From assembly GCF_000313135.1 (NCBI RefSeq), contig NW_004457313.1:422815-486814 (forward strand): a DNA stretch of 64,000 nt, read 5' to 3'. The DNA comes from Acanthamoeba castellanii str. Neff. Taxonomy: Eukaryota; Discosea; Longamoebia; Acanthamoebidae. A program made the position numbers and the translations under genes. This document shows positions 6,929-42,000 of this stretch, piece after piece. The notes beneath the pieces were generated by a model. The model was not told the origin of the DNA, searched no databases, and was given only the letters and a program-made list of their open reading frames with translations. Numbering within the stretch: the stretch's first letter is position 1; the number at the start of each line of letters is the position of its first letter.

Positions 6929-7363
6929 TAGGCACCACCGCCAGCTTTCTCTTTCACCACCTTCTTCTCTTCGCCTTCGGCTTGTTGTCGCCCGACCGTC
7001 AGTTTTCGCTTTGCCTGTAACTTTCCATCGATAGTAGAACTTGTACCTATTTTCTCTCCAAATCCAGAGACATGTTATCTGATCTTGAAGCTAAGCAGAT
7101 CGGCTGGTGAAGCTATGAGGCCTTCTTCTTCTCCAACATTGCAGACCTTCTTTCTCTGGTTTGGCTCTGTGTGTTGTGGCAGATGTTGAGCCAATGGCGA
7201 ATCAAGTGCAGACTCAGGGTATTTCTCCCTGAATTTCTTTCCCCACTACCGCTTCTTCACACCTTCTTCTTGCTCGTTCCAACCCGTTGCTTTCTTTCTT
7301 CAACCAAGAAACCATCATCATCACCAACTCCTCCTTCTTCTCTATATTCGCCAATCACACAAT
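6929..7363. other. Intergenic, tandem genes; nothing coding seen
   Basis: This 435-bp spacer between the SANT/U-box stop and the actin-fragmin kinase start is T/C-rich (many CTTCTTCTTC runs). It presumably holds the 3' UTR of one gene and the promoter of the next. Confidence 0.5.
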
Positions 7364-13516: not shown

Positions 13517-13598
13517 GACAACTTGGCCGAGTGGTTAAGGCGGTAGACTTGAAATCTACTGGGATCTTCCCGCGCAGGTTCAAACCCTGCAGTTGTCG
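13517..13598 (+). tRNA. tRNA-Ser (anticodon UGA)
   Basis: An 82-nt cloverleaf: acceptor GACAACT pairs with AGTTGTC, D-arm TGGCCGAGTGGTTAAGGC, anticodon stem-loop GTAGACTTGAAATCTAC with TGA as anticodon, and a long class II variable arm (GGGA TCTT TCCC). T-arm GCAGGTTCAAACCCTGC serves as B box. There is no intron and no encoded CCA. A Pol III T-run follows at 13605. Confidence 0.95.
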
Positions 13599-13604
13599 AT
13601 TCAA

Positions 13605-13610
13605 TTTTTT
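13605..13610 (+). terminator. Pol III terminator of tRNA-Ser(UGA)
   Basis: Six Ts start 7 nt after the tRNA 3' end, a standard Pol III stop. Confidence 0.85.
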
Positions 13611-13926
13611 ACTTTTCAACCATGGTTTTGGATATGTCCACCCATGAGAAAGGCTGGGTTGAGCTCTCCCAACACCTATCCTGTGCACACAGTCATCCAG
13701 TCATGGGGAGAGCAGCCAAAAAGGTATCAGTGTTGCCACTGACCCTTTTTGAATTATGGCTGTATGGCTGGCAGCCACCAGCTGCCATCCAAATGCAGCA
13801 CTCAGCCCTGCTTGTCCTGTTGAATATTTCACTGGCTGGTGGTGACTTTATATTTGTGTCAGCCAATGCTTGGCTGTGCAAACTGGTCCTGAGTGGAGCT
13901 CTACCACCAATGCCAGGAGAGGTGTG

Positions 13927-14516
13927 AACTTGTGGTCATTTGAAATGAGAGGTCCAGTCTGTGATAGAATGTCCTGCAGGTACACAGTGACTACATGTTA
14001 GACCTACCAATACTTAGTTTATCATGTACACATACATGATCTGGAAAATCAGAACTTTGCTTGTTTTGTGTAAGTGCTCCTCTGAACAACCTCAAACTGC
14101 ACCTTGCTTTTGCTTTCATACCCTCCATCAATTCTGTAATCAGTGGCCAACATGCTGCCCTGACATCCAGTTCATGTTCAACCTCACACCATATTCAGTC
14201 AGTTGCACACATGCACTGAACTTCATTCTTCACATTTGTGCTGAATTGGAGCACTATTCCTAAAGTTAAAATTCCACTCCATTCCACACTGATAAAATCA
14301 CTTTTAACTCCACAAATTCCAAGTTTTTATGAATCATTTTCATCTCAAGTCCCTCAATATCACTTATAAGCAGCGGTCTAGCATGTCAAAATCACACATG
14401 CAGATCAAAATCTTCAAAACTGACCTGTAAATCAAAAATGTCAAATCTCACATGATTTTAGCACAACAAAAATTCCACTGTCCTTTGTGACCTCTCATTT
14501 CAAATGACCACAAGTT
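13927..14516. mobile_element. MITE-like non-autonomous element with 28-bp terminal inverted repeats
   Basis: The left end 13927-13954 (AACTTGTGGTCATTTGAAAT then GAGAGGTC) is the exact reverse complement of the right end 14489-14516. TGTG directly flanks both sides (13923-13926 and 14517-14520) and may be a 4-bp target duplication. The 590-bp body is AT-rich and CpG-poor, with no open frame longer than about 80 codons and no transposase motif. The inverted repeats are identical over 28 bp; the superfamily cannot be assigned. Confidence 0.75.
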
Positions 14517-14681
14517 TGTGGTGGAGCTTGCTTCAGGCCATGGAGCTTGGGGAAGTGGCAAGAGGCCTTCAACTCAGGCCAATTTAGGTGGGTGGGAAGA
14601 TGAAGAGGGGCTTGTAGGAGGTGAGGATGTGGTTGCTCATGTTGAGGAGATGGCTAGGTCTGGAAGAGGGAGGAGCTGGCA

Positions 14682-14717
14682 AATAGATATGCAGTCACAC
14701 AGGAATTGAACCTGGGC
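14682..14717 (-). pseudogene. Decayed partial copy of tRNA-Gly 3' half
   Basis: AGATATGCA...GGAATTGAACCTGGG repeats the stretch AGATATGCATCC...GGAATTGAACCCGGG that forms the 3' half of the adjacent tRNA-Gly. One clear difference (CCCGGG to CCTGGG) is a CpG-to-TpG change. A 12-nt repeat of the tRNA 5' end (ACCACGGATGC) also lies just beyond the tRNA at about 14811-14821. Confidence 0.55.
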
Positions 14718-14723
14718 AAAAAA
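14718..14723 (-). terminator. Pol III terminator of tRNA-Gly
   Basis: Six As on the plus strand (six Ts on the transcribed sense) lie 5 nt past the tRNA-Gly 3' end. Confidence 0.8.
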
Positions 14724-14728
14724 GATAT

Positions 14729-14798
14729 GCATCCGCCGGGAATTGAACCCGGGTCTCCCGCGTGGCAGGCGGAAATCTTGCCACTGGACCACGGATGC
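14729..14798 (-). tRNA. tRNA-Gly (anticodon GCC)
   Basis: The minus strand folds as GCATCCG...CGGATGC acceptor, D-arm TGGTCCAGTGGCAAGA, anticodon arm with CTGCCAC loop (GCC) and T-arm CCCGGGTTCAATTCCCGG. It lies inside the CpG-poor block yet keeps its own CpGs, which argues that it is under selection and functional. Confidence 0.93.
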
Positions 14799-15487
14799 CT
14801 TGCTTGCCTGCACCACGGATGCTTGTTGGGCTCTGCCGGCTGCCATTGTAGTCAGCTAAGAAGCTCTTGTTTCTGGTGGCCTGTGCATTTCATCACTTGC
14901 TGTTTAGTCTTTCTACAAAAGGTAACTCACTGGAACCTCCAAACAGCTTTGGTGGGCTATGAGTGTAGGTAAAAATTCATAAGAAGCAAACAAGCAGGTC
15001 TATAGTGACAATCCAATCACATCCCTCTAAAGTCATCCCTCCATTGTTTACTACATTTTTTGTGCTGATTGTTGAGGCTTGATGCCTCATGGCAAAGATG
15101 GGTTGGCTCAGAGTAGAGACCAGCAGTGGGAGGAGGGGGAGCAGTGGGAGGTAGATGTTGTGGTGTGTTGTTGTACCTGGCTGGCAGGTGGCAAGGACAG
15201 CCAGTTGATGCTCCCAGGTGTGATTGTCTGCATTGTACTGCAGTACATTCTATTTGTTGTATCTAGATGTTGGCCCAGGTTTTTATTGGTATAGTTGTGA
15301 TTGGTGTGTTGTAAGGTGTGTTTCAGAAAACAGGGTGCTCACATTATGAACAGATTATGCGTAGAATGGGGAGGATGTGGGAGTACTGCAGATATTTTTA
15401 CATTGTATCCCTGGTGGGCAGAGCCAAGCCATCAGGATCTTTGTTTATTATACGTAGTTTTTAACTAAAAAGATGTGGTTGTAGTAA

Positions 15488-15559
15488 GATTCCGTGGTGC
15501 AACGGTAGCACGCAAGCCTAACACGCTTGAGGTCGCGAGATCAACACTCGCCGGAATCA
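15488..15559 (+). tRNA. tRNA-Val (anticodon AAC), unusual T-loop
   Basis: Acceptor GATTCCG pairs with CGGAATC. The D-arm TGGTGCAACGGTAGCAC and the anticodon stem CAAGC/GCTTG with loop CTAACAC give AAC. The T-stem GCGAG/CTCGC is intact, but its loop reads ATCAACA rather than the usual TTCRANN, which also weakens the B box. A T5 terminator follows. It may be a real but divergent gene or an early pseudogene. Confidence 0.8.
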
Positions 15560-30815: not shown

Positions 30816-31311
30816 TTCTTCGGCCAGAAAAAGAAGAGAAATAGTCAGAAAAAGCACAGCTTCGTTCTTTGGCGAAGCGGCGGACTTCGCTCTTTGTCCC
30901 CCCCCCCATTCGCCCTCAAAGCACGGTCAGGAAAGGATGCACTTCTTGTCCCTGGACCCTCCCGAGGGCGGACCAGGTCGAGCAGAAAGCGTAGCGGAGC
31001 AGCCAGCAGCTCCCTCGCGTTCTCCACGCGATTCTCCTACACCGGCCGGCGCACACCATCGAAGCCGCATGAGTGGCACCGCTCTCAAGAAGAAAGAGAA
31101 GAAGCAAAGTGGAAGAGAGGCACCAGAAGACGGAACTCGAAGGGCTTGACGCCCTTGAGCACGTCTTCGTCCTTGGTCCAATCGAACAGTCCCGGGCTTG
31201 TGTTTGGGGCCTGGTGCGCGGCGCCCAGGTGAGAGGAATTGCCGCACGCAGCAGCTTAAGCAAGTGGTGGCTGGGCACTCGTACAAACAGGATCCTGTCG
31301 TGCAGCTTCTC
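30816..31311 (-). pseudogene. Truncated duplicate of the CDC123-like gene 3' end
   Basis: This stretch repeats 37193-37797 in the same orientation at high identity by eye. It has lost 43 bp (source about 37325-37370) and about 70 bp (source about 37702-37771). The first loss shifts the last exon so that the CILS end falls out of frame; the second removes coding sequence around QLIVVELNPF. It retains many CpGs, so it is younger than the decayed relic next to it. It lies 57 bp upstream of the SREK1IP1-like start and may now serve as that gene's promoter or leader. Confidence 0.85.
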
Positions 31312-31312
31312 T

Positions 31313-31370
31313 GTTCACATTCAAGATGCACTTCATAGAGCTGCCCCCAGCAGCCATCCAGGCTCTCCTC
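31313..31370 (+). pseudogene. CpG-decayed relic of a CDC123-like exon 2
   Basis: These 58 bp match 38676-38733 (reverse complement) with eight differences. All eight are CpG in the source turned to TpG or CpA here; the other positions are identical. It still reads MHFIELPPAAIQALL beside the source FVELPPAAVQALL. It lies on the opposite strand to the adjacent duplicate. Confidence 0.9.
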
Positions 31371-31954
31371 TGGCCAATGCTATGACATAGAGGCAGTTGA
31401 CACAGCGCACAGCAAGGGCCTGCTTTAGCATGGACACATGCAATGCTGCCTCCCCCTTTTGGAATCCTGCCTACAAGATGAAGATGGGGATGAAGGAGAG
31501 GGCAATGGGTTGCAGTTGTGTGATGTTGAGAATGTCAGCAAAAGAGAAGTTATCAAGGCATTTCTTGCAACAACAGAATGATGCAAGAACAGTATTGATG
31601 TGATCATTGCTGACAAGCAGGCAACACTTTTTGGGGATTCACTCTTCAGCAGTTCAGAGAACTCTCTTCCTTGGAGTATGAGCTGTGGCTCATAAGGACT
31701 GGCCAAAGATTGGGGATAGTAGGGTAGAGGTGAGGACCTCAGTGTTGGTGGGGAGAGAGTGGCTCATTGTGGTGGAGAATGACTGTATGACACTGGCAAG
31801 GTATTTAAACATTTGGTGTGATATCTCCAATTCCCAATGGCCACATAACAGATAGATGTGGTTCTTCTGGATTGGCAAACATTTGTGTTTCTTGGAACTC
31901 CAGACCAATGAGCTCACAACAGTGGAGTTGAGGAAAATACTGGACAAATTAAAA

Positions 31955-32122
31955 AACCCAATGCGCATCAGGTTTTTTATTTGTCAACTCTTTTCCTGAT
32001 GCACATCAGGAAACAGGACAACAAATTAAAACTGATGTGCATCAGGAAAAGAGTCAACAAATAAAAAACCCAATGCACATCGGGTAGCAAGTCAACAAAT
32101 ACAAAACCCAATGCACATCAGC
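31955..32122. repeat. Dispersed repeat cluster R1 (TGCGCATCAGG family), partly palindromic
   Basis: Several copies in both orientations of a unit of about 38 bp: CCCAATGCACATCAGG, then AAACAAGTCAACAAAT, then AAAA. The core ATGCGCAT appears as ATGCGCAT, ATGCACAT or ATGTGCAT, as expected if one palindromic CpG decayed on either strand. Head-to-head copies at 31965-32060 could form a hairpin. Confidence 0.85.
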
Positions 32123-32255
32123 TCTCCAGACCACATGAAATTTCGCCACCTGTTTCCAGTCCCTCCAATTAGAATTTAATGCAGACAGCTTTTTTGTAGA
32201 CCTTCACTACCTATAAAATGTCAAAACCTGTTTTGATCATTTTGTTGTACCACCC

Positions 32256-33919
32256 ATGTTCAACACACACTTCCTTACAATGTCTTCTTGCCAAGCTGCC
32301 TCAGTCCTTCCCAACTTCTCAGCCATGTCAGCCACTGAGCTTCTAGCAAGCTCCCATAATGCCCTGGCAAAGGTGCACCAGCAACCTGGCACCAAGGTTA
32401 TCACCAAGGCATACATTGACAGGTTGCTGCAGGTGCAGGGCCAAGACACTGGCTGCACAAAGCAGCAGTCTCTCAAACTGCTAATGCAGTGTACACCAAT
32501 GACAGCAGAGGAGGGAGTGAAAGAGCTGATGGATGTGGAAGAGGAAGAGGAGGAGGAGCAGATGGAGGATAAGGAGGAAGAGCAGGAGAAGGAGCTGGAG
32601 GAGGAGGAGGAGAAGCATGGGGAGGAGCAAGTGGAGGAGGAGAAGGGGGTGGAGCTGGAGGAGGAGAAAAAGGAGGAGAAGGGAGAGGAAGCACTGGAGG
32701 AGGAGTGGGAGGAGGAGTTGGAGGTGGAGAAGGAGCTAGAGGAGGAGGAGGAGCTGGAGGAGGAGGAGCACCAAGCACCACCAAGGAAGCACAAGCTGGT
32801 AGAGGAAGAGCACAAGGAGAGGAAATGTGCACACCCAGTGGTGATTGACCTGGACAAGGAGATGGAGGTGGAGGAGATCAAGACCAAGCCTCACAAGCAG
32901 CTGGTGGTGTGCCAGTACTCTGAAGGCAACACCAAAGAGCAATGCAAGGAGGCTGCCAGACTACTTGCCCTGCCTGACCTGGAGCTTGGTATGTACACTT
33001 TGTGTGCATTGGGTTTTTTATTTGTTGACTTGTTTCCTGATGTGCATTGGGTTTTTTATTTGTTGACTTGTTTCCCAATGCACATTGGGTTTTCTATTTG
33101 ACCTGTGAAAATCACATTCTCTAACAGTTTGTGTTGCTGACCTCAACCTTACTATGCAGAAATGAAAATTCATATGCTCTTGAGCAGAGGAGGCCTCCCT
33201 TGCCTCAATGTCCACAAGTGAACAGTGCTGGTGTCTCTCTGTGTTGGCCAAGGGGAAAATGGTACAAATCAACTCCTTCCTGTTCCAATTCACACCCCAT
33301 TACTTTCACTTACACCACTATTATCTAACTTCAGCCTGCAGTACCCACTGCCACTGAAGCTTCTGGCACCACTCCAACCACCCCAACCAGTACGTTTTCA
33401 TTTTGCTGGTAAAGTTCCAAGCTCACCACATGCTTGTTCTTTACAGCTACCAAGAAACATGGCAAGGGTAAGGCTGAAGAGGAAAAGTTGCCATCTACCA
33501 TCAAGCACAAGGCAGAGCTTGCTCTCCAGAAACAGTATCTCCCCCAATTCACTGAGCCGCTCACCAAGCTTCTTGGCCAACCAATGCAATTCCATGAATG
33601 GCTGGTGTGTTTATTGTCCTGCATTGTTTTCCTGATGTGCATCAGTTTTTTTATTTGTTGACACTTTTCCTGATGCGCATCAGGTTTTATTTGTCAACTC
33701 TTTTCCCCAATGTGCATTGGTTTTTCTAATTTCACTTATTTCCTGATGTCCACCGGTTTTTTTCTTCCACAGGTGTTGATCTACCTGCATGACTTTACCA
33801 TCCACAGTGTGGACATTCCTCTCAACATTGAGGACACACTCTCCTCTACCCCCATAGCAGAGGGCAACATCTCCTCTCTCACCAACTGGCTCCTCACCTT
33901 CCACTCTAAATTCCTGTAG
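32256..33919 (+). CDS. Novel acidic gene inside the CpG-poor block
   Basis: ATG 32256 starts MFNTHFLTMSSCQAASVLPN. Four exons with usable GT/AG sites join in frame. Exon 1 ends LPDLEL (donor GTATGT at about 32988), exon 2 encodes PTATEASGTTPTTP, exon 3 TKKHGKGKAEEEKLPSTIKH to MQFHEWL, and exon 4 VLIYLHDFTIHSVDIPLNIE to LLTFHSKFL and TAG. Features are a Ser/Ala-rich start, a helix around HNALAKVHQQPGTKVITKAY, a Glu-rich coiled-coil region of about 90 residues, and VVIDLDKEMEVEE. Introns 1 and 3 contain the dispersed repeats. After the TAG the frame stays open for about 45 codons (ESDLTAITSFLQGL...). I recognise no family. It could be an element-borne gene or a resident gene caught in a methylated block. 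Confidence 0.5.
33003..33098. repeat. Dispersed repeat cluster R2
   Basis: Two to three direct copies of the R1 unit (GTGCATTGGGTTTTTTATTT then GTTGACTTG) at the start of intron 1 of the novel gene. Confidence 0.85.
33622..33773. repeat. Dispersed repeat cluster R3
   Basis: Four degenerate copies of the same unit fill intron 3 of the novel gene, one keeping the CpG form GATGCGCATCAGG. Confidence 0.85.
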
Positions 33920-34307
33920 GAGTCAGATCTCACAGCCATCACTTCCTTCCTACAAGGCCTAACTTCACATCCTGCCCTTGCCCCTCTCACACCCAAGACC
34001 AGCTCCTCCTCCTCTTCCAGTCCATGGAAAGTGCAGAAGTCCATTGGCTTAATATAACAAGTGTCTGTTGTGGTCACACCACTATATCATACATACAATG
34101 ATATGGCATAACAATTTGCATCCCCTTATGATGAGTCCATTGTCTCTCAGAAGGTTCCTCTTGCCTCCACCTGTTGCTTTGAGCAACAGAAGCCGTCATA
34201 GCAGAATGCGCCGCATGTGCCAGCCAATGGTGTATTTTGGCATCTTTCCTTTTTGCACTTTAGGGGATTTGCGAGCCCAGGGCTTTTCATCTTTACTCTT
34301 CCCACCG

Positions 34308-36655: not shown

Positions 36656-37192
36656 TCACTTCCATTCAGATGCATAAAAAATGAGGCTCCACATGCGCGG
36701 ATCGAGTCGGGCCTCGTGCATGAACAACTTGTAGAAGTAACCGTGTTCGTCGCAGTCGTCGGCCGGCCCAATGCCCACGTCGGGGCGGTGGTCGCCGCCT
36801 ATTCCTTGCCACGGCCTGGCCTCGTCGCGGCGATGCAGGCGCGCCTTGGCTGCCAGCCACAGCCTGGCCAGCATGTTTTTGGAGTCGACATCCGCGAGAG
36901 TCTGCCCGCAAGGCACCTGCAGGGCGCGCGGCGCAGAGAGCGTGGCGGGCATACTTGGTCAGCACCAGGTCACCCATGTGTTGGTCACTGGCATCGCTGA
37001 TGTAGGGATCTCGCTGGCGCCGACGGTGGCGCCGCCGGGGCCGAGGCCCGTGATGACATCGAGGCCAAGCGCGCTCGCCACCGTCGCGCCGGAGAGCGCC
37101 TGGCGGTGGACAACGACGTTGTTGGCCCTCAGTTCGAGCGTCGGTGCAGTGTCGAGGGACAGGCCGAGGGCGATGCCCTCGCGGCCGTTGAA
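36656..37192 (-). pseudogene. Coding-like stretch of unknown origin, frame broken
   Basis: Two minus-strand frames look protein-like. One is EEFNGREGIALGLSLDTAPT...GLDVITGLGPGGATVG, ending VTNTWVTWC. The other is SAPRALQVPCGQTLADVDSK...DEHGYFYKLFMHEARLDPRM, ending IFYASEWK. They are offset by one frame at about 36955, where a short intron (donor GTGCTG, acceptor CTGCAG) might also join them. No start codon or family was recognised. It begins exactly where the CDC123 duplication ends (37193). Confidence 0.4.
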
Positions 37193-37293
37193 TTCTTCGG
37201 CCAGAAAAAGTTCGGAAAAAGCATAGCTTCGTTCTTTGGCGAAGCGGCGGACTTCGCTCTTTGTCCCCCCCCCCACTCGCCCTCAAAGCACGG

Positions 37294-38919
37294 TCAGGAA
37301 AGGATGCACTTCTTGTCCCTGGACCTGGCTGCCGGCTCCTCCTCGGAGCCCTTCTTCTCGTCAGCGGCCTCCCGAGGGCGGACCAGGTCGAGCAGAAAGC
37401 GTAGCGGAGCAGCCAGCAGCTCCCTCGCGTTCTCCACGCGATTCTCCTACACCGGCCGGCGCACACACCATCGAAGTCGCGTGAGTGGCACCGCTTTCAA
37501 GAAGAAAGAGAAGAAGCAAAAAGGAAGAGAGGCACCAGAAGACGGAACTCGAAGGGCTTGACGCCCTTGAGCACATCTTCGTCCTTGGTCCAATCGAACA
37601 GTCCCGGGCTTGTGTTCGGGGCCTGGTGCGCGGCGCCCAGGTGAGAGGAATTGCAGCAAGCAGCAGCTTAAGCAAGTGGTGGCTGGGCACTCGTACGAAC
37701 GGGTTCAGTTCGACGACGATGAGCTGGCCGTCAGGCAGAAGGGCGAAGTCGATGGCGTAGGTCGAGGCCGGGATCGTGTCGCGCAGCTTCTCCTCATAGA
37801 AGCTGCGGATCTGTTGTGCGATGGCCTCCTTCTTCTCCACCGCCTCGCGTACAAAGCAAAACTTGTAGTAGTGCGTGACTGTGTGCGTGTGTCATGCCGT
37901 GTGCGGTACCGTGTGCAGTGCGAGTTGAGTGTCAGTAAATGCTGTTTGGGCAGCGGCCTGTTAGCGATGGGTACCAGCAGTGAGTTGTCGGTCGTAGACG
38001 AAGCCTCTGCCAATGAGAAAACAAAGTTAGCCAAATGCCTGCTGCACATTGGAGGCATACATGGAGAATTCGGACCTGAACTCGAGCTCGGGACGAAAGT
38101 CGAGCCATTTCCTGATGACTATGTTCACGCTCAGCTCATCGCCTTCCTCTTCCCTTCGCGTCGCCAGATGGCGATCCACTCGATCACTGACGCACACAGC
38201 GAGTCAGAGACCGGCACAGTACACGGCGCACGGCGCACGGCGCACTACATGCACGACACGACAAAAGAAAAACCTGCGGATGAGGAGGTCCATGGCTTCG
38301 GCCCCGTTGGTCACGCGGCAGGCGAGGCAGCAGGCCATGTTGATGGCGATGATCTCGGCGTCCTCGTCGCCCGCCGCGGCGCCCTCCAGCTCGGCCTCCA
38401 GAAGGCCCTTGAGCTTCTCCGACTGCCACTTGACCGCGTCCTTCGGGCTGAGCGTCGAGATGCGGACAAAGGCAGCCCCGCCCAAGGCCTCAATCGCCTC
38501 CTCCACCTGCGCTCGCAACTGTGTGGCGTGTGGCGTGTGGCGTGTGGCGTGTGGCGTGTCATATTGTGGGTCATTCCACGCACGAAAGTGCTGCGAAAGA
38601 GAAGAGTGCCTGCTCGACGACAGTGGCGTGGGCGGGTTCGAGGGTTCGTTGAGCGGAGCGGGCGTCGTGTGCGCGGAGGAGAGCCTGGACGGCCGCCGGG
38701 GGCAGCTCTACGAAGCGCGTCTCGAACGTGAACTCCTTGATTGCCTCGTACCAGCTGTGGGCGACGCGTGGTCAAGTCTTTCCAGACATAAACAAATTGA
38801 CGATTTAAATAAATAAAATGGTTAAAAAAATTAAAAAAGCAATAACGCTGCAAATGGAGAGGGTACCCTTCCACGGCCCAGTCGAGCTTATCGAACTTTT
38901 GTTGCTCTTCACCTTCCAT
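37294..38919 (-). CDS. CDC123/D123-family ATP-grasp protein with C-terminal CaaX box
   Basis: Cdc123 proteins are ATP-grasp chaperones for eIF2 assembly. About seven exons from ATG 38919 give MEGEEQQKFDKLDWAVEGWY, FVELPPAAVQALL, GGAAFVRISTLSPKDAVKW, WLDFRPELEFRSEF, YKFCFVREAVEKKEAIAQQI and STYAIDFALLPDGQLIVVEL with NPF. The last exons give SPGLFDWTKDEDVLKGVKPF then EFRLL, ENRVENARELLAAPLRFLLD and DKKCILS at TGA 37294. RPE.EFR, D(A/F)..L..G...VVELNPF and the FDW motif are the family core, with the Asp/Glu/Asn ligands of the Mg-ATP site in VELNPF. The CILS end is a prenylation signal, supported by an upstream Lys/Arg-rich, amphipathic tail. Parts are duplicated at 30816-31370. Confidence 0.82.
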
Positions 38920-39026
38920 CTTGCCAATAAACTTGAAACGTAAAGTAAAATGAAATGTGAAATGAAAAAAGAAAAAGAAAACAATAAGTAAAGTATTGTT
39001 CCACTCGTGCGAATCAGGTCCGAGAG
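38920..39026. promoter_or_regulatory. Divergent promoter region, CDC123-like / FZO-like
   Basis: Just 107 bp separate two divergent ATGs. It is A/T-rich (GAAATGAAAAAAGAAAAAG), with no defended motif. Confidence 0.4.
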
Positions 39027-42000
39027 ATGAGAAGAACCACGGCAGCAACCATGGCACAGGGGAGGGTGGTCACTACCGCAACTTTCTCCACCTCTGCGTG
39101 GCTTCGGCGTTGTGGCAGCGAGACGACTTCAGCGCTGATGCCGTCTACATCTTCACTCGGTCGCAGCGCCGCCTCGCGAGGGGTGGCTTCAGCACGCCTG
39201 CACTACCCTCGGCCCCGAACAAGCTTGTTCGGTGATGCCCCCGGCAGCCGTGGGGCAGCTGCCATCTCCTCCTCGCTGGCATTCAATCGCCATCTTCTGC
39301 CTGCAGCCTCATCTTGCAGGCGAAGACAGGCCACCGCCACCGAAGTCTCCCTCCAGAAGGTTCGCAGTAGTGGCTATGCTCAGTGCACCCTCCTTCATCC
39401 ACTCTGCAGATTTATTTCTTCTATTTTGTTTATATTATAAATATATAATTATCTATTTTTAAATAAATATAACATTATATTCATATTTGGGTTCTCTACC
39501 AAAGCAGGGAGAGGGTAAGGAGGGACTGCGTCGTGTGCTCAACGCGGACCAAGCGGCGCTGCTGCAGCAGGAAATCTGTCTGCTCGAAGACGTTCTGGCC
39601 TTCCTGCAGAAGGTACGCCTACAGACTATATCACACACATTCGCTACGCAGTGCGACTCACCGCACGCGCTCACTTGACCCCCAATTCACACGACGCACA
39701 CGCTCCCACGCACACCCAACAGATCGGAGCTGACCAAGAGGACGTGGAGCTGTTGAAGCAAACGAGGGAGCAACTGGAGGAGTTGTTCCTGCTCGTCGTG
39801 GTGGGAGAGTTCAACGCCGGCAAGTCGGCTTTCCTCAACGCTATGCTCGGCAAGAAGTACCTCAAGGAGGGAGGTGCGCTGCAGCCTGTCCTCCCCTCTC
39901 ACATGTTGTTGTATTACTGTTCGAACGCTTTTTTCTTAGCTCACCACGACACCTGAACGCACCACACGCGCGTGTGCAGTGATTCCCACAACGAGCAAGA
40001 TCACGTCGATTCGGCACGGCGAAACGGCGTCGTCTGTGCTTCCGACCGAAGAGCCCGATCGCGAGGTCATCTACCTGCCCGTGGACTGGCTCAAGGTGCG
40101 CCTCATATTTAACTGCTCAGTTTACAATGACGTTGCCGCCAAGATTGAGCAGACACCATGTAAGACATGTCAAGCTTACGACTGTGTCGACTGTGCGCTT
40201 TACCTCAGGACCTCAACTTGGTGGACACGCCAGGCACCAACGCCATCCTCAAGTATCACCAGCAGATCACCGAGCACTTTGTCCCACGCAGCGACATGGT
40301 GCGCGATTCCAGTTGTTGTTCTCTGCTGACGTTGGCGAGTTCCTCTAACAAATGATGACTTTCCCTTGGCTCACTACCGTTGCAGGTTCTGTTTGTCACC
40401 AGCTCCGACCGAGCGCTGAGCGAAAGCGAACACCAATTCCTGAACAGGATTCGCCAGTGGAAGAAGAAAGGTAAACTTCATACTTGATTCGCACAAGTGG
40501 CAAGCTACAGCTAACCTTATGCGTATGTGTGTGGCCTTCAGTTTTGGTTGTGCTGCAGAAGGTCGATTTGTTGGAGGACGAAGCGCAGCTCGAGGAGTTG
40601 CGCAGCTTCGTCGCCAAGGGAATGAGCCAGCTCCTTGGCATCCAGCCCAAGTACCCCACTCACTCCCTCCCCCCTCGCGGCCCGCGGCCGAGCCGCTCAC
40701 TGTGTGTTACCACTTTCGCAGAATTTTCCCAGTGTCGGCTCGCCTGGCGCTGAAGGCCAAGCAGCTGATGGCCAAAGAGAACGCGTCGGCTGAGGTGAGG
40801 GTCACTGGTGCTAGCTACAGTCAGGCGATTGGAGGTGTATGTTCTGATATGGGCCGTTGCAGGAGAAGGCAGAGGCTGCAGCGCTCTGGGAGAAGTCCCG
40901 CTGGGCCGAGCTGGAGACCTACATTCTCAAATCGCTCGACGCCGGCGAGAGGTCTAAGCTGAAGCTCAAGAATCCCCTCGGCATCGCCCACAACCTTTTG
41001 AACAAGTACAAGGGTACGCTGCAGTTGCATGCGTGCACTCTCTTGCTGAAGTATAGTTCATACGCACAACACGAACAGATGTGACCGAGAGCAGACTGCA
41101 GGTCCTGGCCAAGGACATCACCAGCATCGAACACATTGAGGAACAGCTCGAGGAGTACCGAAAGGTGTGTGCATGTGTGAATATATATTGTCTACATCGT
41201 TCAGTGTATGTGCGATGCTATTCGTTACTCATTGTTCGTTTTTATTTTTGTCTTGTCTTGTCAACAGGAAATGAAGAGGGACTACGAGTTCCAGCAGAAC
41301 CGAATCGACAACGTGCTGCTCGAACTGGCCAATCGAGGCGACGCCTTCTTCGACGAGCACCTCTCCCTCTCCAACGTACGCCTCAGCGCCCACACGATCG
41401 CAGCCATCCTCCCGCTGATCGTTTTTCGTCGTTTTTTCGTGTGGGTGCCATGGCAGATCTTTGCGTTGGCTCGGTCTGAGAAGCTTCGTGGCGAGTTCGA
41501 GCGCACCGTCGTTGCTGAAACGGCCATCCAGATCGAACGGTGACGCACCATCTTCCAATATGCGATATCAAGGCGTTTTGCGTGGTGGCCCTGCTAAATG
41601 TCGTTGTGTCTTTATACAGGAGCGTGAGCGACCTGATCGACTGGACAGTGGACAAGAACAGCAAACAATGGCGCAGAGTTGTGGACTACGCCCTCGAGCG
41701 AGCTGCGCACCACGCGCAAGTCTGCCCGCCCCCTCCATCGCATTCTCTTCTCTTTTCATTCTTGCTTGCGTACGGTTTGTATATTCACGGCTAGCACGTA
41801 CAGAGCGAAGGCCTCATTGGCAAGGTCGAATCCGAGTTCGATTACAACAGGGCCAAGCTCCTCGATACCATGGGCGCAGGGGTCCGTAACGTAGTAGCGT
41901 CCTATGACAAGACCGAAGAGGCCCGCCAGCTCGCCAACGAAGTGCCTTACTTTCCCACCTCTGTTCAATCTCGCCTCGCGGTCCCGTTTCGTATCGTGCA

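Follow-up and report, generated by a model that had tools for sequence, protein, structure and literature searches.

The loss of CpG from a relic of a host exon and from the repeat-element copy adjoining it, in a 64,000-nucleotide stretch of the Acanthamoeba castellanii str. Neff genome (the window), is best explained by methylation-directed C-to-T decay at the CpGs of silenced DNA and its flank. We put the probability of this reading, which is drawn from sequence, at about 0.85. The initial annotation of the window had inferred that this genome methylates CpG on repeated or inserted DNA, or has a RIP-like process, and that the relic records it; a CpG transition excess, TG/CA discordance between repeat copies and the presence of DNMT1-like and SRA genes all lend this support. 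The locus presents near-complete CpG-only erosion of repeats on a local scale, against an observed/expected (o/e) CpG ratio of 1.02 for the window. Coordinates of the features are collected in Table 1.

We aligned 31313-31370 with the reverse complement of 38676-38733, which had been claimed as its source, and the match was upheld, with 50 of 58 bases identical. Each of the 8 source CpGs holds exactly one of the 8 differences (7 CG→CA and 1 CG→TG), and none of the 42 non-CpG bases differs, so the earlier claim that every CpG is now TpG or CpA, without any other change, also held. The probability that 8 substitutions in 58 bases land one in each of 8 CpGs is 1.3e-7, a figure that does not include the requirement for transitions, and it rules out a chance match as the origin of the relic. 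The same match was recovered in a genome-wide search (E = 9e-11), and it can be extended by two bases, to 31372, which takes in a ninth source CpG, likewise TpG now. The initial annotation had named a closer genomic source already lacking CpG as evidence that would count against it. We looked for such a source by searching the whole assembly with region 37100-39500 (40 of 67 first-look candidates scored). Among the 129 matches listed for that region, the relic was the sole non-self match to exon 2, so this search revealed no closer source. The assignment of the source gene to D123 is weak and comes via its 3' exon (PF07065, E 2.4e-4, 20.8 bits, below the 24-bit cut-off). An ACACGCC tandem repeat within the same gene (window 38520-38560) recurs at dozens of genome sites.

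Table 1. Features of the window (positions count from its first letter)
Feature	Position	Strand	Remarks
CpG-keeping piece of the gene copy	30845-31289		direct copy of 37212-37701
CpG-depleted block, whole	31281-34260		~2.9 kb, about 31.3-34.2 kb; CpG almost absent
Third piece of the gene copy	31290-31311		source 37771-37792, 20/22 identical
Inverted relic of exon 2 of the CDC123-like gene	31313-31372	+	9/9 source CpGs are CpA or TpG (7 CA, 2 TG); zero other substitutions
CpG-poor stretch between relic and element	31373-31514		1 CpG, at 31406
Truncated copy of DUF7869-associated repeat element	31515-34053		CpG o/e 0-0.27 in fourteen 200-bp bins starting 31401 to 34001
Source: exon 2 of CDC123-like (D123) gene	38674-38733	-	CpGs present
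Second CpG-depleted block	13599-15487		between tRNA-Ser (13517-13598) and tRNA-Val (15488-15559); repeat inside at 13925-14516
tRNA-Gly interrupting the second block	14728-14798		holds 7 CpGs

The relic is the last of three adjacent pieces (30845-31289, 31290-31311 and 31313-31372), all from the one CDC123-like gene, and the pieces differ in the fate of their CpGs. The 442 aligned bases of 30848-31289 contain 13 substitutions. This stretch retains 32 of the 36 source CpGs that align; 4 more source CpGs fall in a segment deleted here. Two of the four lost CpGs, at 31284 and 31288, are the final ones of the piece, and both are CG→CA. The short piece that follows had 3 source CpGs, one retained (31299), one now TpG and one changed by a transversion. 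Taking 31281-31372 together, the 14 CpGs of the source have become 9 CA and 3 TG, with 1 transversion and 1 kept; the excess of CA over TG (9 to 3) is not a significant strand bias in this zone (p 0.15). Loss of 8/8 CpGs in the relic compares with 4/36 in the CpG-keeping piece (Fisher p = 2.8e-6). Hence, a single gene copy is split by a CpG boundary near 31280, with CpGs kept on one side and lost on the other.

This boundary places the relic at the edge of the CpG-poor block at ~31.3-34.2 kb. For the stretch between relic and element, 31373-31514, a degenerate 32-base pattern found only itself genome-wide, and similarity to the compared loci gave nothing. A second large block lies near 14 kb. 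Repeats occur in both, and those copies that we examined are poor in CpG. A few other low-CpG bins of the window start at 7001, 26601, 34801 and 58201. The tRNA genes of 13517-15559 resemble islands or barriers inside a depleted domain.

From 31515 onward the element has long matches at nine other places in the genome. A sister copy, L064, is longer and carries two reading frames with the Pfam domain DUF7869, which has 44 matches in the genome (43 above cut-off) and relatives in metagenomes and some animal genomes. The element is probably a DNA transposon, a cautious placement since DUF7869 is a domain without assigned function. It also contains tandem 36-38-bp palindromic units of the CCTGATGCGCATCAGG type, in both orientations, at window 31956-32133, 32987-33100 and 33610-33766.

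To follow the decay across sister copies, we compared two alignments of 12 sequences each: region 1 (window 31515-33100; 80 ancestral CpG sites inferred) and region 2 (L064:5600-8300; 151 ancestral CpG sites inferred). L064 is the same insertion as L004, and the regions share several insertions, so they are not independent samples of insertions. In region 1, L004 retains 64/75 CpGs, the window copy 2/72 and the other ten copies 1 to 10 each. In region 2, L064 retains 123/149, L065 33/148, L072 27/143 and the nine others 6-13 each (7-12%). Read as a time series (123, 33, 27, then 6-13 CpGs left), the sister copies allow measurement of the rate. Non-CpG differences from L064 number 8/2403 in L065 and 7/2250 in L072 and reach 0.6-2.4% in the remaining copies. 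Counted per CpG, CpG loss outpaces other change by a factor of 469 (238-1087) in L065 and 560 (272-1394) in L072, and an excess of ~500 per CpG amounts to ~250 per cytosine. A single rate does not fit all copies, because old ones plateau at 7-12% CpG retained rather than at zero, and retention varies from site to site.

The spectrum of these changes led to several observations. First, at the CpGs of L064 the other copies read TG 475 times, CA 487 times and TA once, out of 1124; at those of L004 the counts are 243 TG, 243 CA and 3 TA of 540. Equal TG and CA with TA almost absent is expected if a single deamination destroys the CpG site. Second, set against L064, 9 of 11 copies have no more transitions than transversions outside CpG, and the other two stand at 7:6 and 4:3. 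Third, pairwise spectra contain many TG-versus-CA differences, each a sign that two copies independently lost the same ancestral CpG. Concordance of CpG state did not fall significantly with inter-copy distance (Mantel p 0.31 and 0.28), a flat result that a star-like copy history explains and that likewise gives no indication of shared inheritance. CpG losses are largely independent between the element copies examined.

Meanwhile, the repeat at 13925-14516 behaves differently. Among 20 sequences (the window and 19 further ones; locus L058 was omitted, the same place being already in L055), the pairwise comparisons sum to 501 TG/CA discordances and 4,459 other substitutions. So few discordances indicate that CpG loss there largely predates the spread of the copies, and the family is of little use as a test of independent loss. 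The family spread while CpG-poor, so its mobility was not stopped by CpG loss. Repeat pairs across the genome without a CpG transition excess would have spoken against the initial annotation; in the pairs examined, from three sets of related repeats and this one further family, the excess is very large. We noted in addition that a CGCGTACGCGTACGCG-type motif at L048:970-1030, and at matching places in L044-L047, L055, L058 and L060, has most of its CpGs intact in close copies, although the repeat is otherwise CpG-poor. In the diverged copies L050, L052 and L061, and in its internal repeats, the CpGs of this motif are mostly CA or TG.

We suggest that the relic and the adjoining mobile-element copy would share one silenced domain with CpG cytosines that are methylated, or formerly were, and that this domain would extend beyond the element into the adjacent scrap of host gene. 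Methylation would be the targeting mark. Methylated CpGs would turn into TpG or CpA at a rate hundreds of times that of change at other bases, leaving few in the end. The T:G products of deamination may escape repair and the C-to-U products may be removed by uracil glycosylase, which together would explain why CpG alone is targeted. Part of the loss would arise through events that strike several sites on one strand, and not site by site. The relic matters here in that host DNA beside a silenced element is also affected, and CpG-free blocks could act as a sequence-only map of past methylation.

Strand correlation offers a way to test slow chemistry against an enzyme. We counted neighbouring lost sites on the same strand and compared them with permutations within sites, using the CpGs of L004 (64) or L064 (123) at which at least 80% of copies read CG, TG or CA, and copies with at least 15 lost sites (10 of 11 in region 1, where L009 was omitted, and all 11 in region 2). 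Same-strand neighbours numbered 280 against 230.7 ± 10.2 in region 1 and 590 against 481.7 ± 14.9 in region 2, values attained in 0/300 permutations each. A third set, of related but distinct copies with sites inferred from mixed states, gave 165 against 138.1 ± 7.2 (0/500 permutations). Each of the three sets consists of DUF7869-associated elements or neighbours of such elements. Clustering z was positive in 9/10 copies of region 1, 11/11 of region 2 and 5/6 of the third set, with p < 0.05 in 4/10 and 7/11 copies of regions 1 and 2. The strand correlation, computed over 52 and 110 sites in the two regions with the palindromic repeat units excluded, stood at 0.27 and 0.36 for CpGs within 10 bp, was down to 0.13 and 0.15 at separations of 60-150 bp and had vanished beyond 400 bp (-0.06 and 0.02). 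In a simple model of events that each strike, on a single strand, a fraction e of the CpGs nearby, e would be ~0.4-0.5 at short range, which is a reading and not a measurement.

Two trivial causes of the clustering were considered. A strand preference specific to each site is ruled out by permuting within sites, and misregister in the palindromic 38-bp repeats is set aside, as the correlation persists with the units left out. Individual copies vary. The least decayed, L064, has bunched losses (p 0.005) in strand domains, 8 consecutive CA followed by 11/12 TG. The youngest decayed copies, L065 and L072, have weak, non-significant clustering (z 1.19 and 1.11) and no bunching of lost sites was seen in them; L003 and L054 lean in the opposite direction (z -0.84 and -0.83). 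Neighbouring CpGs are hit on the same strand beyond chance, so site-by-site independence does not hold. The statement that spontaneous deamination gives exactly this pattern is therefore too simple, since neighbouring CpGs tend to agree in strand.

We searched the genome for methylation and repair genes, DNMT genes having been proposed as a check. Profile PF00145 found cytosine-methyltransferase exons on C155, C94, C215 and C248. The best PDB relatives of the C155 exons are DNMT1 (E 2e-13); the C94 gene is weakly DNMT1-like (E 0.003), C215 is HaeIII-like, and C248 we take to be DNMT2-like by motif. SRA domains score above cut-off on C154 and C148. DNMT1-like and other cytosine-methyltransferase genes are thus present together with SRA genes. 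No DNMT3-type gene was identified in the genome, though one is reported for A. castellanii. The HaeIII-like gene (G000:C215:64255-65683; L021, L022) is bacterial in type and may be a transferred gene or lie on a contaminant contig. There is one UDG-superfamily match, on C124, presumably UNG-type judging by its motif. In the surrounding locus (L063, around G000:C124:12459-12935) the glycosylase has an in-frame TGA, with an F-box domain after it in the same frame; an intron or two genes may be the reason. APOBEC_N had zero matches in the genome, and the same search gave none in any control genome. The HhH-GPD search returned 1 match here and was positive in 14/14 control genomes. A eukaryote should have more than one such match, so the exon-wise search is insensitive and the absence of TDG/MBD4 cannot be concluded from it.

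How the decay proceeds can be read in more than one way. The losses might be independent, one-site spontaneous deaminations of 5-methylcytosine, fast only through poor repair of T:G. The CpG-only spectrum, with non-CpG transitions not above transversions in most copies, speaks for this, as do the UDG-superfamily match and the slight strand clustering of L065 and L072. Left unrepaired, 5-methylcytosine in duplex DNA deaminates at some 1e-5 to 1e-6 per site per year, and protist mutation rates are low; such rates would allow a ratio of several hundred with no enzyme involved. Against it, independent deamination predicts zero strand correlation between neighbours and three data sets show one, and the HhH-GPD search is too insensitive here to establish that TDG/MBD4 is absent. 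We hold this account at somewhat below even odds.

An active RIP-like process, in which an enzyme (for example, a cytosine methyltransferase acting as deaminase, or a single-stranded DNA deaminase) mutates several CpGs per one-strand event, repeatedly and in repeats and their flanks, would account for the same-strand excess over within-site permutations in the three sets, for a correlation that is short-range and gone beyond 400 bp, and for the strand domains of L064. It sits less well with L065 and L072, where clustering is weak and lost sites are not bunched, and with the reversed sign in L003 and L054. No deaminase was found, though the APOBEC_N search was silent in control genomes too, and a persistent strand asymmetry of each locus, from R-loops or transcription, could yield similar domains without multi-site events. 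We entertain this process tentatively. As between slow chemistry and an active RIP-like process, the strand coordination tilts towards multi-site events without settling the matter. The broader proposition, that A. castellanii, a non-fungal protist, runs a RIP-like defence in which silenced repeats and adjacent DNA are hypermutated at CpG alone, several sites per strand, until CpG is nearly gone, we regard as doubtful; if true, RIP-like use of cytosine methylation as a mutator arose outside fungi.

An assembly artefact is improbable. A long-read base-caller that miscalled methylated CpG as TpG or CpA on the strand dominating the reads would be compatible with a CpG-only effect, with very low non-CpG divergence and with strand tracts, and contigs of up to 2 Mb suggest that long reads were used. 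Such an artefact should bring the correlation within 10 bp close to 1, by our reasoning, against the 0.27-0.36 observed. The CpG-poor states of the 13925-14516 family are mostly common to its 20 sequences, hence real sequence, and CpG-rich motifs are called inside depleted elements. Moreover, element proteins from other sources bear the footprint of CGN codons losing CpG, that is, Arg replaced by Cys, His, Gln or Trp. We examined 5 of 122 element homologues. From P0001 to P0002 the replacement affects 8/11 Arg (reverse 0/2). From the L064 frame it affects 9/12 towards P0002 (reverse 1/4), 5/9 towards P0008 (0/4), 5/7 towards P0013 (0/3) and 2/4 towards P0005 (0/2); from P0001 to L064 it affects 1/13 (reverse 0/12).

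That the element simply avoids CpG, and that the relic derives from a diverged paralogue never having had those CpGs, is very improbable and we reject it. In its favour, the 13925-14516 family spread already CpG-poor. Against it, the relic agrees with the local gene at 42/42 non-CpG bases; moreover, the element has a sister copy rich in CpG, and at the CpGs of that copy the poor ones disagree in TG/CA state.

Methylation-directed decay of silenced DNA can be set beside several known systems. Vertebrate CpG decay involves the same substitution class, on both strands and at CpG only. The mammalian excess is 10-15 per cytosine, in contrast to ~250 per cytosine here, where the decay also appears confined to repeat blocks in the window and is strand-correlated. 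APOBEC/AID hypermutation goes with a cytidine deaminase of that family and a preference for the 5' neighbour; here it is the 3' G that defines the target.

In A. castellanii itself, 5-methylcytosine is described as restricted to CpG and located in repeats and silent genes, hypermethylated windows number 966 and span 3.4% of the genome, and the species has both DNMT1 and DNMT3; the same source names 5-methylcytosine as mutagenic in general (PMC12344493). Viral inserts in this species are described in general terms as silenced and then decaying by point mutation and rearrangement (PMC12210455), and UHRF1 and HELLS are present (PMC10538959). In the available text of PMC12344493 and PMC12210455, methylation is described rather than the sequence trace that we see here, and neither CpG depletion nor RIP-like mutation in Acanthamoeba is described in the available text of these two and PMC10538959. 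Among the literature matches listed, we found no report of RIP-like or CpG-deamination hypermutation in Acanthamoeba or protists.

Fungi offer further parallels, and CpG-signature decay of transposons (PMC4352252) and one-strand clustering in RIP (PMC7296669) are already known there, as far as the available text of these papers goes. In transposons of Microbotryum and Tuber, CpG→TpG/CpA is the only or the main signature, found with a DNMT1-class gene and ascribed to CpG methylation followed by deamination of 5-methylcytosine (PMC4352252, available text). That transposon signature is shared here. The difference is that near-total CpG loss lies here beside sequence with o/e ~1 and that the strand correlation was measured; the word 'strand' is absent from the available text of PMC4352252. 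In Neurospora, about 92% of RIP clusters lie on one strand (PMC7296669, available text), and RIP is tied to a DNMT1-superfamily gene (PMC4352252, likewise). For the RID/Masc1 feature, the candidates by best relatives would be the DNMT1-like exons on C155, the weakly DNMT1-like gene on C94 and the HaeIII-like gene on C215. RIP of the Neurospora crassa type shares with the present case C-to-T change in and near repeats, clustered by strand, although the clustering is diluted here compared with Neurospora; it differs in that the change here is at CpG only, not with the CpA preference of ascomycetes, and in that the host is not a fungus.
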